From the NCBI GenBank assembly GCA_010672965.1, contig JAAHFN010000005.1, positions 160,171 through 224,170 of the forward strand: a DNA stretch of 64,000 nt, written 5' to 3'. The notes under the pieces are model-generated. The model did not search any database. It was not told the DNA's origin and saw only the letters and a list, made by a program, of their open reading frames with translations. The first letter of the stretch is position 1, and every line of letters starts with the position of its first letter. The stretch is from Oscillatoria sp. SIO1A7 (GTDB taxonomy: Bacteria > Cyanobacteriota > Cyanobacteriia > Cyanobacteriales > Laspinemataceae). Shown in pieces: positions 7,084 through 63,602 of the stretch. The position numbers and the translations under genes were made by a program.

Positions 7084-9846
7084 TCAATAAATCAAGCGCT
7101 TCAGAGTTTCCAGCAGCAACTCTTGATTAAAAGCGCTCTTAGTAATATAAGCATTAGCTCCTGCTTCTGCCCCTCTTCTTTTATCTTCATCCTTCGCCAA
7201 AGATGTGACCAGAACAATAGGCAACTCACTATATTCCTTGTACTCGCGGACTTTAGCAGTCAGTTGCAAGCCATCCATATTGGGCATTTGCACGTCAGAA
7301 ATTAACGCATCAAAAACGCCTTTTTTAAGCTTATTAAAAGCATCCAAGCCATCCACCGCTGCAACCACTTCATAACCAGCATTTTCGAGAATACGCTTTT
7401 CCTGAGTTCGAGTAGCTATGGAATCTTCCGCCAACAGAATAACTTTTTTTGCATTGACCGCTTTTTTAGTTGCCGTCCTCAAGTCAGAGAAAGCTTGCTT
7501 GCGCGCGGACTTCATCAAATCGTAGGGATTTAAGACCATGCAAACCTCGCCGGTGCCGAGAATGGTAGCGCCGGAAACATTTCGCACCCGTTTCAGCAAT
7601 TTGCTCTGGGGTTTTAAAACCACATCTTGCTCGTCAATCGAGGCATCTACCAGCAAGCCCAAGCGTTCTTCTCCCACCTGACAAATAATACAAGGCCGGT
7701 TTGTGGTTTGGGACAAATAAGACTGGCTTTCTCCCGAATAAGATAATTCCAGTAAATCTCCCAATCTAGCGACGGATATAGGCTGACCCTCAAATAGAAT
7801 CGCATCTCTACCTTCGATAGAAAAAATATCATCCTCAGAAATCAGCTTAGCAGTATGGACGAATTCTACTGGCAAGGCGTAGGCGATACCATTCACGGAC
7901 ACCAGCAGAACGTGAGCTGTGGCTAGAGTTGTGGGCAGTTGGAAACGCAGGGTAGTGCCTTTCCCAGGAATAGATTCTACTTGGATAGACCCTTTGAGAC
8001 GTTCTACATTAGCGCGCACCACATCCAAGCCTACTCCTCTGCCAGAGACTTCCGTCACAAAAGTGCGGGTGCTAAAATAAGGTGAAAAAATAAGCGACTG
8101 GATCTGATTGGGGGTCATCATAGCCAGTTCTTCTTGCCTAACTAGCCCCCGTGCCAAAGCAGTTTGCTTGATTTTATCGATATCCAGCCCTCGGCCGTCA
8201 TCAGTCACTTCAATAATAACATTGCTGGCAGTTTGGTAGCCCTTGAGAATAATATTCGCCTGGGCAGCTTTGCCTTCCCGCTCTCGTTGTCTTGGAAGCT
8301 CTATCCCATGATCGATAGCGTTGCGAATCGCATGCATCAAGGGATCTTTCATTTCCTCTAATATGCGCTTGTCCGCTTTGGTTTGCTCTCCAACAATAGA
8401 AAGTTCTACTAATTTCTCTTGCTGTCTGGCCAGCTCCCGTACCATACGAGGAAACATATTAAAGATGGTCGATAAGGGTAGCAGTCTTACTTTGCGGATT
8501 CCTTGTTCTAATTCATCGCTAATAAGATCGAGTTTGGCACTGTCTTCATAAACAGAGTTTCTCAGACTGAGCGCAAGAGAGCCCAGTTGCTCTAAACGCT
8601 CCGCGAGGCGATCGTGGAAGGTCTGCAATTTTTGCCAAGAGCCAGCGTCAGACCTATTTTTTACTTCCTCAAAATTGAAGCGATTGGCAAAAGCATCTCG
8701 GCTCCAGGTTTCCCAAAGGTTGAGGATTTGTTCCACTTCGGCGAGCCTGCGAGACAAGCGGCTTTTAGTGACAGTTAGTTCGCCAGTTTGGGTCATTAGG
8801 GCATCGAGAGCCTGGGTTTCGACACGAATGGTCTCGATGCGGTAGGTGCCGCTCGACCCTTGGGGCTTCTGGATCGCACTGGCGGCAGCAGTTTCTCCTG
8901 GCGCTGTCCCCTCCTGGCCCTTGTCTTGTCTTGGTGAGGGTTCGGTATCCTGTTTTAGAGCATCCTGTTTGAAAGATTCTGGGGTTTGCGGGAATGTTGG
9001 TTGTCTTTGCCCAGTAGCCGCTCTCGGTCTCGGCAAGGAAGCAGATATAGGAGATGAAGTTTTTGTTTTTGTCTCCTCCTTAGCTCGGGAGTCTTCTTTT
9101 CTTGTTTTCTTGGTAGAGGCAACCGAACCAGGTTTGTCGTAGAACTCGGAGGGCTTTGCTTCTTGAGAAGACTCCTCGGTAGGGGTAATAGTAGGGGTTT
9201 CCGAGTCAACGCTTTCGGTAGGGCTTTGCTCCTCGGCAGAGTATGCTTTTGCAGTGCTTTCTTGCGATAAGATCTGCCCTTGGAAAGGGACGGATAAGGA
9301 CTCCCTTGAAACCGGCTTGCTTGGCTGCTCTGTCTCGGTCAGCGCTATTTCGGTCGGCGCTGTCTCGGTCGACGCTGTCTCGGTCAGCGCTGTCTCGGTC
9401 GACGCTGTCTCGGTCGACGCTATCTCGTTCGGCGGCTCCTCGGCTGTTGGAGCTATAGCAGCTTCTTGTGGTGGCGCTCCCATTAGATGAGCGAGAACAT
9501 AGAAGGTATTAACATTACTAGGTTCTCCGGTGACTGCTTCGCGAACTAGCTCTCGGATAGCCTCTAAGCCGCTATAAAGGCGATCGCAAGTTTCTGAATT
9601 GAAAGTATTTTCCCCTCGTTTAATACTTCCCAATAAATGCTCCCATTGATGGGCGAGAGTAGCTACATCTTTTACCCCCAACATACCCGAATCGCCTTTG
9701 AGACTGTGGGCTTCTCGCATCAGCTCCCCTATCCTGGCCTCGTCCGTCGGGTTTTTTTCTAAATACAGCAGTCCTTCGTCTAGTTTTTGCAAATGTTCTT
9801 CACTAGCTATTTTGAAAGTTATACGCAGTTCTTCATCTTCTATCAT
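7084..9846 (-). CDS. cheA: chemotaxis hybrid histidine kinase CheA (Hpt-CheA-CheW-REC)
   Basis: This 920-residue protein is the kinase of the chemosensory array. The N-terminal Hpt domain has phosphorylatable H47 (REAHSLKGD). A long acidic/Pro-Ser-Thr linker (about 120-330) follows, then the dimerisation region. The ATPase has an N box ([10 protein letters not shown]), a G1 box (DDGRGLD) and a G2 box (GRGVGLDVV). A CheW-like regulatory domain and a C-terminal receiver with [10 protein letters not shown] complete it. The start is set by GGAGG just upstream of the ATG at 9846. The linker contains in-frame [11 protein letters not shown] repeats from a tandem DNA repeat at about 9330-9430. A fused receiver is common in cyanobacterial CheA proteins. 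Output could be motility or gene control; the sequence does not decide. Confidence 0.95.
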
Positions 9847-9974
9847 AGCAAGCCTCCTTCAATTAGGGTGTGGGGTGTGGGGTGTGGGGTGTGGGATGTG
9901 GGATGTGGGGTGTGGAGTGTGGGAAGGGCGGGAAGGGTGGGGAGAGAGGGGGGGAGTTTGGGAAGGGTGGGAAG

Positions 9975-10208
9975 GGGAGCATTTCACCTTTGTAACAAAC
10001 GGGAGCATTTCACTTTTGTAAAAAGTAGCCCGGAAGGGCTTTGTTTGTATAGCCGCGCCAGCCGCGAGCGGAGGCGGGGCTGACGCCTATAGGCGTCAGG
10101 CGGCGGGCGTGCAAAATTGAAATGCTCCGTAACAAACAGCCCTTAAGGGTGCTTTGTGTAACAGTGCCTTTAAGCGTTGGGCAGCTCCGTGCGAAATTGA
10201 AATGCTCC
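9975..10208. repeat. nested MITE-like elements: family C copy inserted in another C copy
   Basis: The outer element starts GGGAGCATTTCACCTTTG at 9975 and ends GAAATTGAAATGCTCC at 10208. It is split by a second copy at 10001-10128 with the same ends. The inner copy is flanked by a perfect 9-bp direct repeat, GTAACAAAC, at 9992-10000 and 10129-10137, which reads as its target-site duplication. The remaining intergenic DNA here (9847-10323) holds GGGTGTGG and CACCCCACACCC repeats at the two sides and no gene. Confidence 0.8.
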
Positions 10209-10323
10209 AGTGGGAAGGACTAGAAATGAAAATTACCCACACTATCTACACTCCCCACCCTCCCCACGCTCCCCCCTCTTTCTTTCACCCCACACCCCAC
10301 ACCCTACACCCCACACCCCACAT

Positions 10324-11772
10324 TTATACCATTTCCTGAAGCTCGATCGCTTTTTGGTGGAGCTGCCCGGTGCCAACTTTTGTCTGAGCGATCGCGCTGG
10401 CAGTCTCTTTCGCAGCGCCGTTCAGGTGATTCATAGCCTCTGTGACCTGTTGAATAGAGATTGCTTGTTGCTGTGTCGCCATAGATATTTCCTGAGAATT
10501 AAAAAAAACTTGGTCTATCGCTTCTTGAACTTGCCCAAAAACTGCAGTTGTTTTTTCTGCTATTCTCGACCCTTCTTCAACACTTATAGAGCTATCGCTC
10601 GTAACCATTATCGTAGCATTAATAGCCCCTTCAATATCCGTCACCAAAGCATTAATATTTTCTGCTGATTGGCGGCTCTGGTCTGCCAGCTTGCGAATCT
10701 CAGCAGCGACGACACCAAATCCCAGACCGCGATCGCCAGCTCGGACGGCTTCTACCGCTGCGTTTAGCGCCAGCATATTCGTTTGAATGCTAAAATCGCT
10801 CACCATATCGGCGATTTTGCCGATTTGACTAGCAATATCTCTCAGTTGTTCTATCTTTATTTGCGTCCCTGCCATTGTTTGTTTGAGAGCGGCCATTTCC
10901 AACCGGGCTCGCTCTAATTCTTTGCTACCTTCCGCACATTGTGCTAGCACCTCTTTGGCCTTAATTGCGGCAGCATCCGCTTGCATCGCTGCTTGCTTAG
11001 AGGAAGCTTTCAATTCGTCCATTGTTACCGTAGTTTCCTCGAAAGAAGAAGCCTGCTGCTGGGTAATTCTCTCTTGCTCTTCTGTAGTCACAGCAATCTC
11101 AGTTGAGTAGGCGGCTATCGTATTAATAATATCTTTTAGGGTTGCGACGAGCGCCCGTCTTACTACAACAAAACCAATAGGAGAGCCAATTAGCAATGCT
11201 AGCAACAATAAAGGAATAAATATCGCTCTCGTATTTCTGTAAACTTCTGCTGCTTTTTGTCTTTCCTGCTTTGCAACTTGCAATTGTAAATCGCTTAATT
11301 CTTGCAGTTTAGCTGTTAAAGGGTCAATGCTGTCGTAGAGCGAACCGTCAAATTCTTCTAAGCCCGACCTATCTTCTTGCTCTAATACCCCCTTTAGTAG
11401 CTCTATTTCCCGATTTGCTTCAGTCAATAAAATTTCTATTTCATCAATAATTTGCCTTTCTTTTTGACTCAGATCTGTCTGTTTATATTTGTCCCAAATT
11501 GAACTAGCTGTACCAAGAGCAGAATTAATAGAGACAAGCGCATCACTGGCAGTCCATTTTTCTTCGCTAGCTTTGTTAACTGCATCAACAACAGTCAGCC
11601 CGTAAGCATCTGATATCAATTTTATTTGCTGCAAAGGGACTAAGCGATCGTCGTAAATCGTGCCCACTTGCCTGTCTATGTTTTCAAAACCTCGTAGGGA
11701 ATAAATACCCAATATCGCTAAACAGATCGGTGGAATGGCAAATCCTGCATACAGCGTTTGACCTAATTTCAT
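10324..11772 (-). CDS. methyl-accepting chemotaxis protein
   Basis: The protein has 482 residues. A membrane segment near residues 5-28 is followed by a helical periplasmic region (about 30-175, four-helix-bundle type) and a second membrane segment near 185-208 (FIPLLLLALLIGSPIGFVVV). The cytoplasmic signalling domain has the receptor hairpin motif GFGVVAAEIRKLADQSRQSA. There is no clear HAMP domain; the coiled signalling region starts right after the membrane. It is the second of two consecutive receptors in the che cluster and should feed CheA and CheB. Confidence 0.92.
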   Translation of the reverse strand: MKLGQTLYAGFAIPPICLAILGIYSLRGFENIDRQVGTIYDDRLVPLQQIKLISDAYGLTVVDAVNKASEEKWTASDALVSINSALGTASSIWDKYKQTDLSQKERQIIDEIEILLTEANREIELLKGVLEQEDRSGLEEFDGSLYDSIDPLTAKLQELSDLQLQVAKQERQKAAEVYRNTRAIFIPLLLLALLIGSPIGFVVVRRALVATLKDIINTIAAYSTEIAVTTEEQERITQQQASSFEETTVTMDELKASSKQAAMQADAAAIKAKEVLAQCAEGSKELERARLEMAALKQTMAGTQIKIEQLRDIASQIGKIADMVSDFSIQTNMLALNAAVEAVRAGDRGLGFGVVAAEIRKLADQSRQSAENINALVTDIEGAINATIMVTSDSSISVEEGSRIAEKTTAVFGQVQEAIDQVFFNSQEISMATQQQAISIQQVTEAMNHLNGAAKETASAIAQTKVGTGQLHQKAIELQEMV

Positions 11773-35303: not shown

Positions 35304-36618
35304 TCTCTTGCTCCTGACTGTCTCCTCACTCTTTAAGTATAGGTTGCTATTACCATTTTTGTACGAAAATTCGCCTTATTAGTTCCGGGCATCGAAGCTT
35401 ATAGGCTCTTATTGACGTTTGGAAATTGCATCCAGCTTCATAAATAATAGGTCTAAGCATAAGTGCGATCGAACAGTTAGAGTATTTGTAGGGGCAGTCC
35501 CCCCGTGGCTGCCCCAAGCCAATAGGGACAGCCATGAGGGGGGATTGCCCCTACGGTATTTATGCGACAGCTACGCGGATTCGATACAGCTTCAAATAAC
35601 TGTAATGCGCGAAACTTAGGGGCGACAGCATCCCTTCAACCATCTCCTCCTTCCGAACGGCAACCCCCGTAATGGGAGGGAGCATTTCAATTTTGTAAAA
35701 GGTAGCCCAAAGAGGGCGAGAGTTTGCGTAGCCGCGCCAGGCTGCCTTTTAGGAGCGGCTTGCGCCTATAGGCGTCAGGCGGCGTCCGCTTCAAAATTGA
35801 AATGCTCCCGTAATGGGATGCTTCGCCCCAGACAACCTCACATCAAGAGCAAGAACCGCTATATCATTCCTATTTACGATCGCCGCTCTAGAGTGCAGGC
35901 GATCGTAGGCTTTGCATCTAAATTACTTCTAAATTACCTCGCTTATCGCCCTCGGATTTCGAGATCGATTTAGTAAGCGATCGCCAATCTTTTACCTTCT
36001 TATTTAGGGCGTAGCGGTAGAGTGTAGGCAAGGAGAGAGCGAGAAGACAGGGAAAAATAAAACAAAATTTTCTCCCCACACTCCCGACAGTCCCCCCATC
36101 TCTCTTCTCCCTACACCCCACACCATAATTATGTAGCAGATTAAACGAGCCAAGGCTTGGGACTTCCACGGTTCTGCTCGATCTGGCTTATTTTGGCAAT
36201 TCCTGACAGGCGACCCAGAAACAGTGTCAATAGTGGTATAATCTGGCCAAAAATTAAATCTGCTATTTGAGAGGCCCATTTTTGTTGATTTCCACTAGCA
36301 AACTCAAACGGAACTTACCTATTTTTCCAGCTCGGACAGTTGGTAAAAATGCTAAAAATGAATCTGGCATCTGCTGCCAACCGAAAGCTAATGGGCCTTT
36401 ATACATTGGCCAGTTTCTGGGTTCAAGGCTAGGGAAAGAGAGATGGGGGAGGATGGGGAGTGTGGGAAGTGTGGAGGTGTGGGAAGAGAGGGGAGTATCG
36501 GGAATGAAAGGGGATTTTTTGAGGGTTCCTCCCACACCCTACACCCCACACCCTAGACCCCACACCCCACACCCTAGACCCTATTTGAAAGCCATTGCAA
36601 TCGAGAGGTAGTAGATGG
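35304..36618. other. long intergenic region with several repeat families
   Basis: There is no gene. It contains a D-like hairpin (35470-35590, GTAGGGGCAGTCCCCCCGTG type) and the A element interrupted by C (35585-35863). Hairpins of GTGTAGG/CCTACACC type lie at about 36008-36123, and GTGTGGGAAGTGTGG/CCCACACCC repeats at 36435-36585, just upstream of ftsQ. Confidence 0.6.
35585..35863. repeat. family A element interrupted by a family C element with 9-bp target duplication
   Basis: Family C occupies 35678-35809 (132 bp) with perfect 18-bp inverted ends, GGGAGCATTTCAATTTTG and its complement. GTAATGGGA flanks it on both sides (35669-35677 and 35810-35818). Removing C and one duplicate restores a family A element matching the copy at 48204-48355 in reverse orientation, through GGCAACCCCCG and GGGATGCTTCGCCCC. 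Confidence 0.85.
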
Positions 36619-48358: not shown

Positions 48359-51300
48359 TTATAAAATACCCTCAATAACCGAGAGAAAACGGCGCACTTG
48401 TTTTGCCCAAGTCCAATCTTGCATGAACCGGGCGGCGGCAAGACCTCGCTGGCTGGCTTCTTCCCTATTAGCATAGATTTGCTCCAAAGTTTCTACCACC
48501 TCCGCCACATCGGACTCGCCCCATCCTTCCACTCCAGAAAACTGAGCGGTTGGGCGGACGGGGCGCTGCTGGCGCAAAGAATAGCAATGGCTTTCCCCAA
48601 GCAAATCTAAATGGCCGGTATTGGCAGATAAAATAGTAGGAATTCCGCAAGCCATGCTCTCCATTGCCCCCAGATTCGTTCCCCCTTCGCAGCGACTGGT
48701 AAAAATCGCCGCATCCGCTTCTCGGATAACCCGAGCCATTTGCTGATTGGGAATAACGCCCAAATCGATAAAAGAATTCTCGGGCAATCCATTGGCAAGC
48801 AACCATTCGCCAATCCCGATCTGCTTGTCCTCTTTCACCTCGGGCAGCCCCGCCACATTGCCAGTTTGCTCCAAGCCCAGCATATATTGCGGCCAAAAGT
48901 TGTGCCAAGCCGCGAGCAATAGAGCGTCGGGATGGCGGCGGCTAAATTCTTTAAAAGCAGCAATAACAATATCCTGACCTTTGCGATATTCGAGCTTGCC
49001 GCCAGAAAAAATAACGAACCTGTCCCTAAAGAGGTTGGACTTTGGTGCGGGATGGAATATCGTCCGGTCAATCCCTTGCTGCACCGTACAAACATTGGCA
49101 ATGCCGTTGCTTTTGAGGATTTGTTCGTTCCAGGTCGAGCCCGCAACTATAGCCTCATAAGTTTTCGCTCGCTCCAGAGCTTCGGCGCTAAGGCGAGTAT
49201 CTTCTAAAAAAATAACTCCTATATTCTGCTTGCCCCGGGGTACGTTGGGAGTCGCAAAGTTTTTGCCCAAACCGCGAACCACCGGGAAATCGCACCAGAT
49301 TTCTTTGCCCGGATTTTTAGCCATCATTTCTTGCAGTTGCGCCTGCTTGGCCAAAACCGGCTGCAATAGCGATCGCTCCAAAGGATTGAATTGCGAAGAA
49401 TTCAGATAAGGCGGAACCAGCAAGACTGGAGCATATTCGGGAACCCGCAGCAACTGCAGAGTCAAATTAGTACCGTATATACCCCAGCCAGTAGTCTGGC
49501 TTAGCTGCCAGCCGATACCGATGCGTAATTGACGGGAATTGGGAATTGGGAATTGGGCATTGGGCATTGGGAATTGGGCATTGGGAATTGGGCATTGGGC
49601 ATTGGGCATTGGGAATTGGGCATTGGGAATTGGGAATTGGGCATTGGGCATTGGAAAGACTTTTGACTCTTGACTTTTGACTTTTGACTCTTGACTTTTG
49701 ACTTTTGACTCTTGACTTTTGACTTTTGACTTTTGACTTTTGACTTTTGTCCCCTGCTCTTCTAAAAGGGCAACTTTAACGGCGGCGAAAACGCTGTCCC
49801 AATCTCCCGGGCGAGGCTGCCGGAACAGGCGCATGCTGGGATACCAGGGACTATCATCTCGGTTTAGCATCCAGCGCCAGTCTGGGTCGTAGGAAAGAAC
49901 TAACCAAACCGGCTTGCCCATCGCTCCTGCCAAATGCGCCACGGCGGTATCGACGCTAATGACTAAATCCAGTTCTGAAATTGCCCCTGCAGTGTCGGCA
50001 AAATCTTTTAAGTTCGGGCTTAGATCCTGCACCGCGCCATTTGGCGAGATATTGGGCGAGATATTTGGCGAGATATTTGGCGAGATATTTGGCGAGATAT
50101 TGGGCGACATTATATATAGTGTCTTTAGCTCCTCGGCTCGCGGTCCGTATTGGAGGCTATAAAGCTGGACTCCGGGTATTTCGGCCAAAGTCGAGAAATG
50201 CTTCAGAGAACAGGAACGATCGCGATCGCGCGGATTGCTAGGACTGCCCGCCCAGACGACTCCTATTTTCAGGGTGTAGGGTGTAGGGTGTAGGGTGTAG
50301 GGTTTGGGGTGTAGGGTGTAGGGTGTAGAGTGTAGGGAAATTGGAACCCCCTTGTCTGCCTTGTCTGCCTTGTCTCCCTTGTCTTTCCCTACACCCGACA
50401 CCCCACACCCTACACCCTCTAGATACGGAACATGATTCGGAATAGTTTCTAGGGTCGTTCCCAGAATATGGGGCAGGCTCATTAAAGGAGCGTAGAAATC
50501 AAAGTGAGGTAAGGTTTGTCCGCGATTCGCTTGCCCAGATGCTGCGCTAACAACTATTTGACTAACGCCGGAAACTTGACTCAACAATCGTTGCAGAGTT
50601 TGGGGACAGCGCAGAATAACCCGATCGCATTTTGCTGCGACTATAGCTGCGTAGCGGATAAATTGAATTGTATCTCCCAATCCTTGCTCGGCTTGGAGGA
50701 GAATTGTTTTTCCTTCTGCATCGGAACCGTCCCAAACCGGCGCTGGCAATTTGAGTTTCGGTCGCCATTCGTACTCGGCAAATCCCCGCAGGAAGTCTCC
50801 CGCTTGGAGCAAAGCCATAGCCAGATTTAGATGAGCGTCGGGAAGTTGCGGTTGCAGCTCTACTGCTTTTTCGTAACTAGCGATCGCTCCTTCCAACTTG
50901 CCGATGCTTTGCAGACAATTGCCCAAATTCACATAAGGATCGACATAACTGGGATTAATACTAATAGCTTCGCGATAGCAGGCGATCGCCTCCTCCATCA
51001 GCCCTTGCCCCGCCAGCAAATTAGCCAGATTATTGTGCGCCTCGGGATAGTTTTGTTCTAAAGCAATAACTTGTCGATAGCAGGCGATCGCCTCCTCCTC
51101 TTTTCCCTGCCTTAAGAACATCATTGCGCGATCGAAAAGAGGCAGGGGGGCAGGGGGCGGGGGGGCAGGGGGCAAGGGGGAAATTTGCTGCTCTCCCGCA
51201 GGGAGCATTTCACTTTTGTAAGAAGGCAGCCCGGAGGGCCCTTCGACTCCGCTCAGGACATGCTTTGTTTGTGTAGCCGCGCCAGCCGCCTGGGAGGCGG

Positions 51301-54300
51301 GGCTTACGCCTATAGGCGTCAGGCGGCTGGATGCGAAATTGAAATGCTCCCTGCTCCCTGCTCCCTGCTCCCCTGCTCCCCACTCCCCTAGAAGGGCAAC
51401 TTTGATGCGGTGAAAAACTCCCTGCCAATCTCCCGGCTCGGTTTGTCGAAACAGGCGCGCAGTTGGATACCAGGGGCTATCTTCTCGGTCTAGCATCCAG
51501 CGCCAATCGGCATTGTATCCGAGAATTACCCAAACCGGCTTGCCCATCGCTCCTGCCAAATGCGCTACGGCGGTATCGACGCTAATGACTAAATCCAGTT
51601 CTGAAATTGCTCTTGCAGTGTCGGCAAAATCTTCCAGCTCCGGGCTCAAATCTTCTATCGGCGCATCGGGCGACATTATATATAGTGTCCTTAGCTCTTC
51701 GGAGCCAGCGCCTTTTTGCAAACTATATAATACGACTCCGGGCAATTCGGCTAAAGTCAAAAATTCCTTTAGGGAACAGGAGCGATCGCCATCTTGTTCG
51801 CGATCGGGATTGCCCGCCCAGACGATGCCAATTTTTAGGGTGTGGGGTGTAGGGTGTAGGGTGTAGGGTGTAGAGTTTATAGAAATTGAAACTGCCTTGT
51901 CTCCGAAATCTGTCTTGTCTCCCAAGTCTTGCCCTACACCCGACACCCCACACCCTACACCCTCTAAATAGGGAATGCGATCGGGAATAGTTTCTAGACT
52001 CGTTCCGAACAAACAGGGCAGGCTCATTAGAGGCGCTTGATAATCGAACTCCGGCAAAGTAGCGCCTTTGGGAATTACTCGCTCGATTCCGGCAACAGTT
52101 TCAAACAAGCGAACTAAAGCTTGGGGAGATTCGACGATAACTGCTGCACCGGTTGCGGCGACTAAGGGAGCGTAACGAATAAATTGAATTGCGTCGCCAA
52201 ATCCCTGTTCGGCATGGAGGAGAATTGTTTTGCCTTGAAAACTTTCTGGGGCTTCTGGTTGTGACGCTTGGGCGGGGGCGTGGTCAAAAGTAGTCGGAGA
52301 GGATCCCCCCAAACCCCCCTTCTTAAGGGGGGCTTCCTTGCCCCCCCTTGCAAAAGGGGGGGTTTGGGGGGGATCCTCAAACTGGGGTATCCCATGAAGA
52401 TCGACGGGTTTTGACCACACCTCTTGGGCGTCTTCTCCCGCCCGCAAACCCGGCCAGAGGGGCTGGGCAAAAGAACGGGGAATAAATTTTTTAGTTTGCC
52501 AGCGCCATTCGTATTCGGCGAAGCCACGACGCAGGTCGCCGACGAGGAGCAAAGTAATTGCTAGATTCCAGTGGGTATCGGCATCCTTGGGATTCAGGGC
52601 GATCGCTCCTTCATAGCAGGCGATCGCTTCGGTAAATTGCCGCCGTTCTCTGAGAGCATTGCCCAAATTATTGCGAGCTGGAGCAAAATTGGGTTCTCTA
52701 TTTATAGCCTCTCGGTAGTTGGCGATCGCTTCCTCTAGTTCTCCCATTTCCTCAAGAGCCACCGCCAGATTATAGTAAGCTTCGCTGAAATTCGGTTCCC
52801 ACTCCATACATTGTCGATAGAGAGCGATCGCCCCTGCAAAATCCCCTCGTTGTTTCAGGGCATTAGCAAGGTTATTGCCAGCGTCGATAAAATTCGGTCT
52901 TTCTCGCAGCGCGCTTTCATACGCCGCGATCGCCTCTTCTAATTCCCCCATTTCCTGGAGCGCATTGCCCAGATTGTTATAGAGTTCTGGCAGAGGCAAG
53001 TCCGCCGACTGCAAAGCTATTGCTTGTCGGTATTGAGCTATTGCCTCTTGCACTTTGCCCTGCTTCCTCAGCGCCACTGCCAAATTATTGCGGGCTTTAG
53101 CATAATTTGGATCGACCTCCAAAACCTGCTGGTAAAGAGCGATCGCTTCCTCCACCCTGCCAGCCTGATAGGCCATTACTCCTTGCTTGTGTAGGGTGTA
53201 GGGTGTAGGGTGTAGGGTGTAGGGTGTAGGGTGTAGGGAAAAGTTCTCCTTGTCCCCTTGTATCCTTGTCCCCCGGTCCCCTTGTCTCCCCAAACCCTCT
53301 AGGGCGGCTCGGACAGCGGCGAAAACGCTATCCCAATCCCCCGGCTGGGTTTGGCGAAATAGACGCATCGTGGGATACCAAGGACTATCATCGCGATCGC
53401 GCATCCAGCGCCAGTCGGGAGCGAAGGGCAGCAAGACCCAAACTGGCTTCCCCATTGCTCCAGCCAAGTGAGCGGTAGCAGTATCGACAGTAATTATTAA
53501 ATCCAACTGCGCGATCGCTGCTGCGGTATCGGCAAAATCTCCCAACTTGCTGCCCCAATCAAGAACGCGATCGCTCGTATTCCCAGGAGAATCCAAGAGC
53601 TTATCCCCAGGAAAGTCCTCCCCGAGAATGATTGCTATTTCTGCTGCTGGCGCTTCTTTTTGCAGGCTGTAGAAAACAGCGCCATCAATATCGAAAAGCT
53701 CCCTAAAATAGCTGGGAGGACAAGAACGATAGCGACTGCGATCGGTTTTATAGAAACCCTTGCCCGACCAAACGAAGCCAATTTTTAAAGGGGAATCGGG
53801 AATTGGACATTGGGCATTGGGCATTGGGCATTGGGAGAGATCGGGAAGGGTGGGAAGGGTGGGAGGGGTGGGAGAATTCCGTAGGCGTAGCCGCTCTGAA
53901 GGGGCAAGGCGGCTTCCCACACTCCCCACACTCCCCACACTCCCCACATGCCCAATTCCCAAATAGGGAACGCGATCGGGAATCGTTTCTAGAGTCGTCG
54001 AGAGCAAATGGGGCAAACTCATTAGGGGACAATGCAAGTCGAAAGGCGGCAAAATTTCGCCCCTAGGAATTACTCGCTCTATTTGTGGAATAGTTTGCAG
54101 CAATCGCACCAAATTTTGGGGACATTCGACAATAACTGTTGCGCCAAGTTTGGTAACTAACGGCGCGTAGCGGATAAACTGAATAGTATCGCCCAAACCT
54201 TGTTCGGCATGAAGGAGAATTGTTTTTCCTGCTAGATTGGAACCATCCCAAAGAGGGACGGCAAAATTGCGCATGGGCTCGAAGTTACCCCAGCGCATCT

Positions 54301-63121: not shown

Positions 63122-63337
63122 ATGGCTAGAGATTATATGCTCAGGATCCGGCTAAATAGCCAGGAATTAGAACGCTTAAAGGCAGAAGCCGAAAGGCGGG
63201 ATGTTTCCATGTCTGAAGTGATTCGGGATTATATTAAACGAATGCCAAAGCCTAAAAAAGACTCAGCCGCTTCGATAGAAACCGACGCAGACGATACAGA
63301 CTTTATAGAAACTGAAACAGGCGATGCAGAGGAGTAG
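63122..63337 (+). CDS. ribbon-helix-helix (CopG/Arc-like) DNA-binding protein
   Basis: The 71-residue protein starts with a beta strand (YMLRIRLNSQELERLKAEA) and two helices (SMSEVIRDYIKRM), the RHH fold, and has an acidic tail (DADDTDFIETETGDAEE). RHH proteins are dimeric repressors, often antitoxins, but no toxin gene is adjacent. Together with queC 75 bp upstream it could be co-transcribed. The target is unknown. Confidence 0.8.
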   Translation: MARDYMLRIRLNSQELERLKAEAERRDVSMSEVIRDYIKRMPKPKKDSAASIETDADDTDFIETETGDAEE

Positions 63338-63602
63338 GGTGGAGTAGGGTGTGGGGTGTGGGGTGTGGGGTGTAGGGTTTAGGGTTTAGGCTAACAGGAC
63401 TGACGCATCGACTCAAGGACCAGGGGCAGGCACGGGGGCACTGCCCCTACAAATACTAGATATGGACAGGCAAGCGTAAGTCCTAGCTAAATTAGGGTTT
63501 AGGGAATTAATAATTTCTCCCTTGTCTTCCCCTTCTCCCTTGTCTTCCCCCTCTCTTCCCTTACACCCTACACCCTACACCCTACACCCTACACCCTACA
63601 CC
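63338..63602. repeat. hairpin repeat with a nested ACTTACGCA-family element (M4)
   Basis: GGTGTGGGGTGTGGGGTG units (63345-63390) on one side and CCCTACACCCTACACCC units (63560-63603) on the other can pair. Between them lies copy M4 (63396-63484; ends AGGACTGACGCA and GCGTAAGTCCT) and CCCTTGTCTTCCCC units. The right arm touches the stop codon of the minus-strand gene. Confidence 0.7.

Follow-up and report, generated by a model that had tools for sequence, protein, structure and literature searches.

Two copies of one short element, one nested within the other, occupy positions 9967-10218 of the window, the 64,000-nucleotide stretch of Oscillatoria sp. SIO1A7 DNA that we analysed. A hybrid cheA gene (7084-9846) and a gene for a methyl-accepting chemotaxis protein (MCP; 10324-11772), both on the minus strand, flank the pair and leave a gap of 477 bp. 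Direct reading of the sequence showed that an inner element of 128 or 129 bp (10001-10128 or 10129) splits an older outer element of 98 bp into two parts, 9975-10000 and 10138-10209.

The order of features across the gap is that of an insertion within an insertion. The left part of the outer element (9975-10000, plus strand) reads GGGAGCATTTCACCTTTGTAACAAAC and is preceded by the left copy of its target duplication, GTGGGAAG (9967-9975), the ninth base of which, a G, doubles as the first G of the element. The left copy of the inner target duplication, GTAACAAAC, lies at 9992-10000 (as 8 bp, TAACAAAC at 9993-10000). The inner element follows (10001-10129, plus strand; 128 bp to its last C and 129 bp with the terminal G); it begins with GGGAGC, closes with TGAAATGCTCC at 10128, and has the inverted-repeat ends GGGAGCATTTCACTTTTG and CAAAATTGAAATGCTCC. 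The right copy of GTAACAAAC is at 10129-10137 (as 8 bp, TAACAAAC at 10130-10137), after which the outer element restarts with AGCCCTTAAGGG at 10138, reaches TGAAATGCTCC at 10208 and ends with TGAAATGCTCCA at 10209 (right part also on the plus strand), followed by GTGGGAAG G at 10210-10218. All four ends GGAGCATTTCA of the nested pair are exact, and the window as a whole contains nine matches to this end with at most one mismatch, against a chance mean of 1.85. A preliminary description of this DNA had reported one element of its family C inside another, with GTAACAAAC repeated exactly at both inner edges, and both observations were borne out. The outer copy's own duplication, GTGGGAAG(G), is an addition to that description and strengthens the case for nested insertion.

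The inner duplication is readable in two ways because the terminal base of the inner copy is G, whereas 29 of 30 aligned copies end in C. Either GTAACAAAC is a 9-bp duplication next to an element that lost its terminal C, or the duplication is the 8-bp TAACAAAC next to an element with a C-to-G change. The window also holds a further copy of the same element at 35678-35809 (plus strand, 132 bp), with the 9-bp duplication GTAATGGGA, and another MITE-like pair of ends at 51201-51351 (plus strand, approximately 150 bp) at which no duplication was seen.

The nested elements belong to a large family of MITEs, non-autonomous elements with the terminal inverted repeat GGGAGCATTTCANTTTTG. The ends are perfectly inverted over 11 bp and nearly so over approximately 18 bp, and elements of 129 and 98 bp are too short to encode a transposase; the preliminary description was right, in our judgment, that the element depends on a transposase acting in trans. 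A strict end pattern, GGGAGCATTTCANTTTNG, had 394 matches in the 9.08-Mb genome and the reversed control pattern had none, indicating that there are about 200 copies of the family in this genome. When a similarity search was run with this stretch of the window, at least 41 matches were obtained in the same genome (40 of 364 first-look candidates were scored). Only 7 of 99 related genomes had any match to the strict pattern, with one to three matches each, and the MITE was not matched in the phage and plasmid collections. The ends proposed for the family had been correctly defined, as the same ends occur on many other copies, mostly 95-135 bp long. The preliminary description had named a lack of other copies with these ends and duplications as the result that would count against it, and the many copies found dispose of that objection.

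The target duplication of the family is 8-9 bp, and mostly 8 bp. We fixed the element as GGGAGC...GCTCCC and examined 97 distinct end pairs from approximately 1.35 Mb of sequence and 30 additional loci; a few of these pairs are dimers or tandem units and not simple insertions. An exact duplication of 7-10 bp was present in 58 of the 97 pairs (39 of 8 bp, 17 of 9 bp, and one each of 7 and 10 bp) and none was exact in the remaining 39. Duplications of exactly 8 or 9 bp at the fixed ends were thus seen 56 times, differing in sequence among the dispersed copies, versus 0.002 expected by chance in 97 pairs. The duplication of 9 bp that had been proposed for the family is therefore real as a target duplication, but 9 bp is the less common length, and this preponderance of 8 bp also bears on how GTAACAAAC is read.

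A few copies have more complex arrangements. On one contig (G000:C43, L318 835-1087), near-identical 108-bp MITE units lie head to tail with a constant 7-bp spacer, AACGAAA, up to the contig end; they resemble a tandem array, which local duplication or a circular or concatemeric intermediate may have produced. In a multi-unit locus on a second contig (L175 1475-1755, G000:C24), flank and MITE are directly duplicated together. A third (L018 1378-1631, G000:C90) carries a fused dimer with trimmed inner ends, the outer ends of which share a single 8-bp duplication, GAGCGATC, a pattern as if the dimer had moved as a unit.

The inner copy is younger than the outer copy. Without its insert, the outer copy measures 98 bp and has 77% identity to the short-form consensus (approximately 100 bp), below the 78-91% of 11 other short copies, and the inner copy is 93% identical both to the long-form consensus and to the nearest sampled copy. 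The order of nesting thus agrees with the divergence. The recent movement suggested earlier stands in this relative sense: the insertion postdates the outer copy, but it is not demonstrably current. Random insertion of 200 copies is expected to give approximately 0.3-1.4 nested pairs, so the single case here requires no special targeting. The regions upstream of orthologous cheA genes in relatives contain no MITE copy; these regions do not align with the gap by eye, and so constitute weak evidence for an empty site. The pair provides a small test case in which the nesting is dated.

The ends of the MITE match those of ISKra4-family insertion sequences. A 1485-bp element of this family (G000:C2:59422-60906; here the C2 IS) is bounded on each side by GGGTGCATTTCAATTTTG and flanked by the 9-bp duplication GTTTAATAT. 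Its end is identical to that of the MITE at 17 of 18 positions, the single difference being that the MITE end starts GGGAGC and the IS end, the nearest found, starts GGGTGC. Two overlapping open reading frames in the C2 IS match NCBIfam NF033572 (transpos_ISKra4), with E values of 6e-14 and 1e-59. The second scores 202.8 bits, just under the cut-off of 205 for the whole protein, which is what a protein divided between two frames should give. Another ISKra4 element, on contig C23 (1172 bp), has the ends GGGTGCATCTCAATTTTG and the duplication GTCTTTAG, and complete ISKra4 elements in approximately ten other cyanobacterial genomes are 1162-1302 bp long, with 8- or 9-bp duplications and ends close to GGG(A/T)GCAT(C/T/G)(C/T)CA(A/C/G)TTTTG.

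The ISKra4 family is described as p-MULT 4, with the groups ISKra4, ISMich2 and ISAzba1 (Guerillot et al. 2014, PMC3942029), and for the prokaryotic Mutator-like transposases the published lengths are 18-39 bp for the inverted repeats and 8 or 9 bp for the direct repeats (PMC3942029). The MITE has the terminal repeats of this family, GGG(A/T)GCAT..CA(A/C)TTTTG, and its 39 duplications of 8 bp and 17 of 9 bp are of the published lengths; it differs in encoding no transposase and in having only approximately 18 bp, and none of its interior, in common with the IS. Based on the shared ends, the duplication lengths and the published rule, we take the MITE most likely to be a non-autonomous element of the ISKra4 type, the copies of which were probably moved by an ISKra4 transposase. 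We put the probability of this reading as a whole, nested ISKra4-type MITEs mobilised in trans by an ISKra4 transposase, at roughly 0.9.

We also considered other transposase families. Duplications of 9 bp occur in the IS4, IS5 and IS1 families, and the preliminary description had suggested that a transposase of one of these moved the MITE. That proposal was not supported and is very improbable: 17 of the 56 clean copies do have 9 bp, but 8 bp is commonest (39 of 56), the elements with MITE-type ends encode an ISKra4 transposase, and no IS4, IS5 or IS1 element with MITE ends was seen in the stretches read. ISL3-family elements, which have 8-bp duplications and G-rich ends, were tried first as the source of the MITE on account of those duplications and their presence in the genome, where their transposases have eight matches and complete elements show 8-bp duplications. 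However, the ends of complete ISL3 elements, in this genome as in relatives, are GG(C/T)TCT.. (GGCTCTTC-like) and not GGGAGCAT; an apparent GGGAGCATCCCA end was seen beside one ISL3 gene, but it looks to be that of a different element that had inserted into the gene. We therefore ruled out ISL3 as the partner and give its derivation of the MITE almost no credence. The C2 IS itself came to light only on reading stretches chosen for ISL3 matches. Approximately 1 Mb contained no long element with GGGAGCATTTCA ends (at most three mismatches) bordered by 8 or 9 bp of exactly duplicated target. Single-end matches in viral contigs and many named genomes were mostly MITEs or lone ends, with no recognisable transposase beside them.

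If the MITE is of ISKra4 type, a series of steps would account for the nested pair. The transposase, a DDE enzyme of the prokaryotic Mutator-like type, would bind the terminal repeats of approximately 18 bp, GGG(A/T)GCATTTCA(A/C)TTTTG, excise or copy the MITE, and insert it at a staggered cut, duplicating 8-9 bp of the target. A first copy landed between the MCP gene and the hybrid cheA gene, duplicating GTGGGAAG(G), and a second copy later landed within the first, duplicating (G)TAACAAAC. As a mobile element the MITE is of a well-documented, ordinary kind, and what is useful is the naming of its partner family: a very abundant type of cyanobacterial MITE end, GGG(A/T)GCAT(C/T)TCAATTTTG, now has a transposase family. 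A text search of the literature by end sequence found no earlier description of these ends, returning only papers on unrelated subjects that we took to be chance matches.

We found no intact ISKra4 transposase reading frame in the draft genome; all 24 matches are fragmentary, split or interrupted. The search proposed earlier, for a full IS with the ends of the MITE, thus yielded the C2 IS, with ends matching at 17 of 18 positions, but not an intact transposase. The C2 IS is the best partner copy, and its read-through requires one frameshift, of –1 at a run of A. The transposase of the ISMich2 group is likewise encoded in two frames that are joined by a –1 shift (PMC3942029), but the C2 IS shifts at the later A-run and several related elements do so at a T-run that comes before it; the shift in the C2 IS may therefore be damage. 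In another case (G000:C130:48545-50046, L249), the ISKra4 transposase gene is broken by a copy of the MITE family itself, with the 9-bp duplication ACTCACATG. One variant of the preferred reading, with the family assignment unchanged, is that an ISKra4 element once moved the copies, that this partner is now dead in the lineage, and that all copies, the nested pair included, are relics. The lack of an intact frame in the assembly, the 80-95% identity of most sampled copies to the consensus and the 39 of 97 pairs without an exact duplication argue for it. On the other hand, perfect duplications are numerous, and the assembly is a draft of 182 contigs, several of which (C42, C121 and C167) end inside an ISKra4 element, so that identical intact copies may be collapsed or missing. 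Weighing these, we place the variant a little short of even odds. A third ISKra4-type end, GGGAGCATCCCATT(T/C)ATGCACTAAG, lies at contig ends or beside fragments on five contigs (G000:C42, C121, C167, C161 and C47; L250-L254) and probably belongs to a multi-copy ISKra4 element collapsed in assembly.

The interiors of the MITEs vary, while their ends stay constant. The same end type is found in Oscillatoria, Laspinema, Phormidium, Nostoc, Scytonematopsis, Tolypothrix, uncultured Microcoleaceae and others, where many of the copies are MITEs with exact 8-bp duplications and unrelated interiors. In Oscillatoria sp. SIO1A7 the main interior consists of hairpins built from short modules, loops and tails such as CGCGAGCGG, CGCCTGGGAGG, CGCTTTTCGG and GGCTCCGTCTAGGAGC, which appear in many different combinations. 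In an alignment of these interiors (A1), the hairpins vary by discrete, reused modules and not by scattered point changes, which suggests exchange between copies. A second class of interior is a palindrome, GTAGGTTGGG..CCCAACCTAC, which in this genome lies mostly outside MITE ends.

The inner copy is predicted to form a very stable RNA fold (z of –6.0 on the plus strand and –6.6 on the minus strand), and could therefore affect transcription through the MCP-cheA gap. The fold, together with the interior motif GGGCTTTGTTTGTGTAGCCGCG, which 15 further cyanobacterial genomes contain and which lacked MITE ends there wherever the context was read, would fit a structured RNA or regulatory (REP-like) repeat, the spread of which is driven by the hairpins rather than by the ends. 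We consider this very unlikely, as the ends and duplications are constant while the interiors are wholly different, and the main interior in its own genome is nearly always within MITE ends (both ends in 43 cases, one end in 5 and none in 6, several of the 6 being unrelated). In addition, there was no Rfam match, and covariation was weak and mostly a reflection of module swaps.

The distribution of the hairpins suggests that MITE ends of the ISKra4 type enclosed pre-existing hairpin repeats more than once, in which case the direction of events would be from free repeat to enclosed repeat. Tentatively, the cyanobacterial ISKra4 ends may be a reusable carrier that has time and again taken in palindromic repeats of unrelated sequence (the AGCCC..GGGCTTTGTTTGTGTAGCCGCG hairpin, the GTAGGTTGGG..CCCAACCTAC palindrome and short minisatellites), with modules shuffled between copies in this genome and the transposase acting as the spreading engine of otherwise immobile hairpins; we hold this to be possible but doubtful. 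The MITE also offers a way into the question of how hairpin repeats spread through cyanobacterial genomes.

A dispersed two-hairpin repeat, AGCCCGC-N-GCGGGCTTTGTTTGTGTAGCCGCG..., is found in many cyanobacteria (L291-L309). The interior of the inner copy holds a form of this motif, which elsewhere stands alone without ISKra4 ends and here is inside a MITE; a literature search by the interior motif gave no matching text. Nezha and other cyanobacterial MITEs (Zhou et al. 2008; Wolk et al. 2010), as far as they are described where PMC10969869 cites them, are also short, non-autonomous elements with inverted repeats, a likeness between the nested pair's MITE and Nezha that is one of description and not of Nezha sequence.

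Short repeats of other kinds are also present in the window. Short arrays of G-rich heptamers of the GTGTGGG or GTGTAGG type are found at many places across the window, including both flanks of the nested MITE (9864-9945 and 10236-10320) and positions 50260-50350, 53175-53245 and 63328-63600. Within the reading frame of the hybrid cheA gene, at 9330-9450, a 15-bp tandem repeat of the CTGTCTCGGTCGACG type encodes a stretch of repeated pentapeptides.
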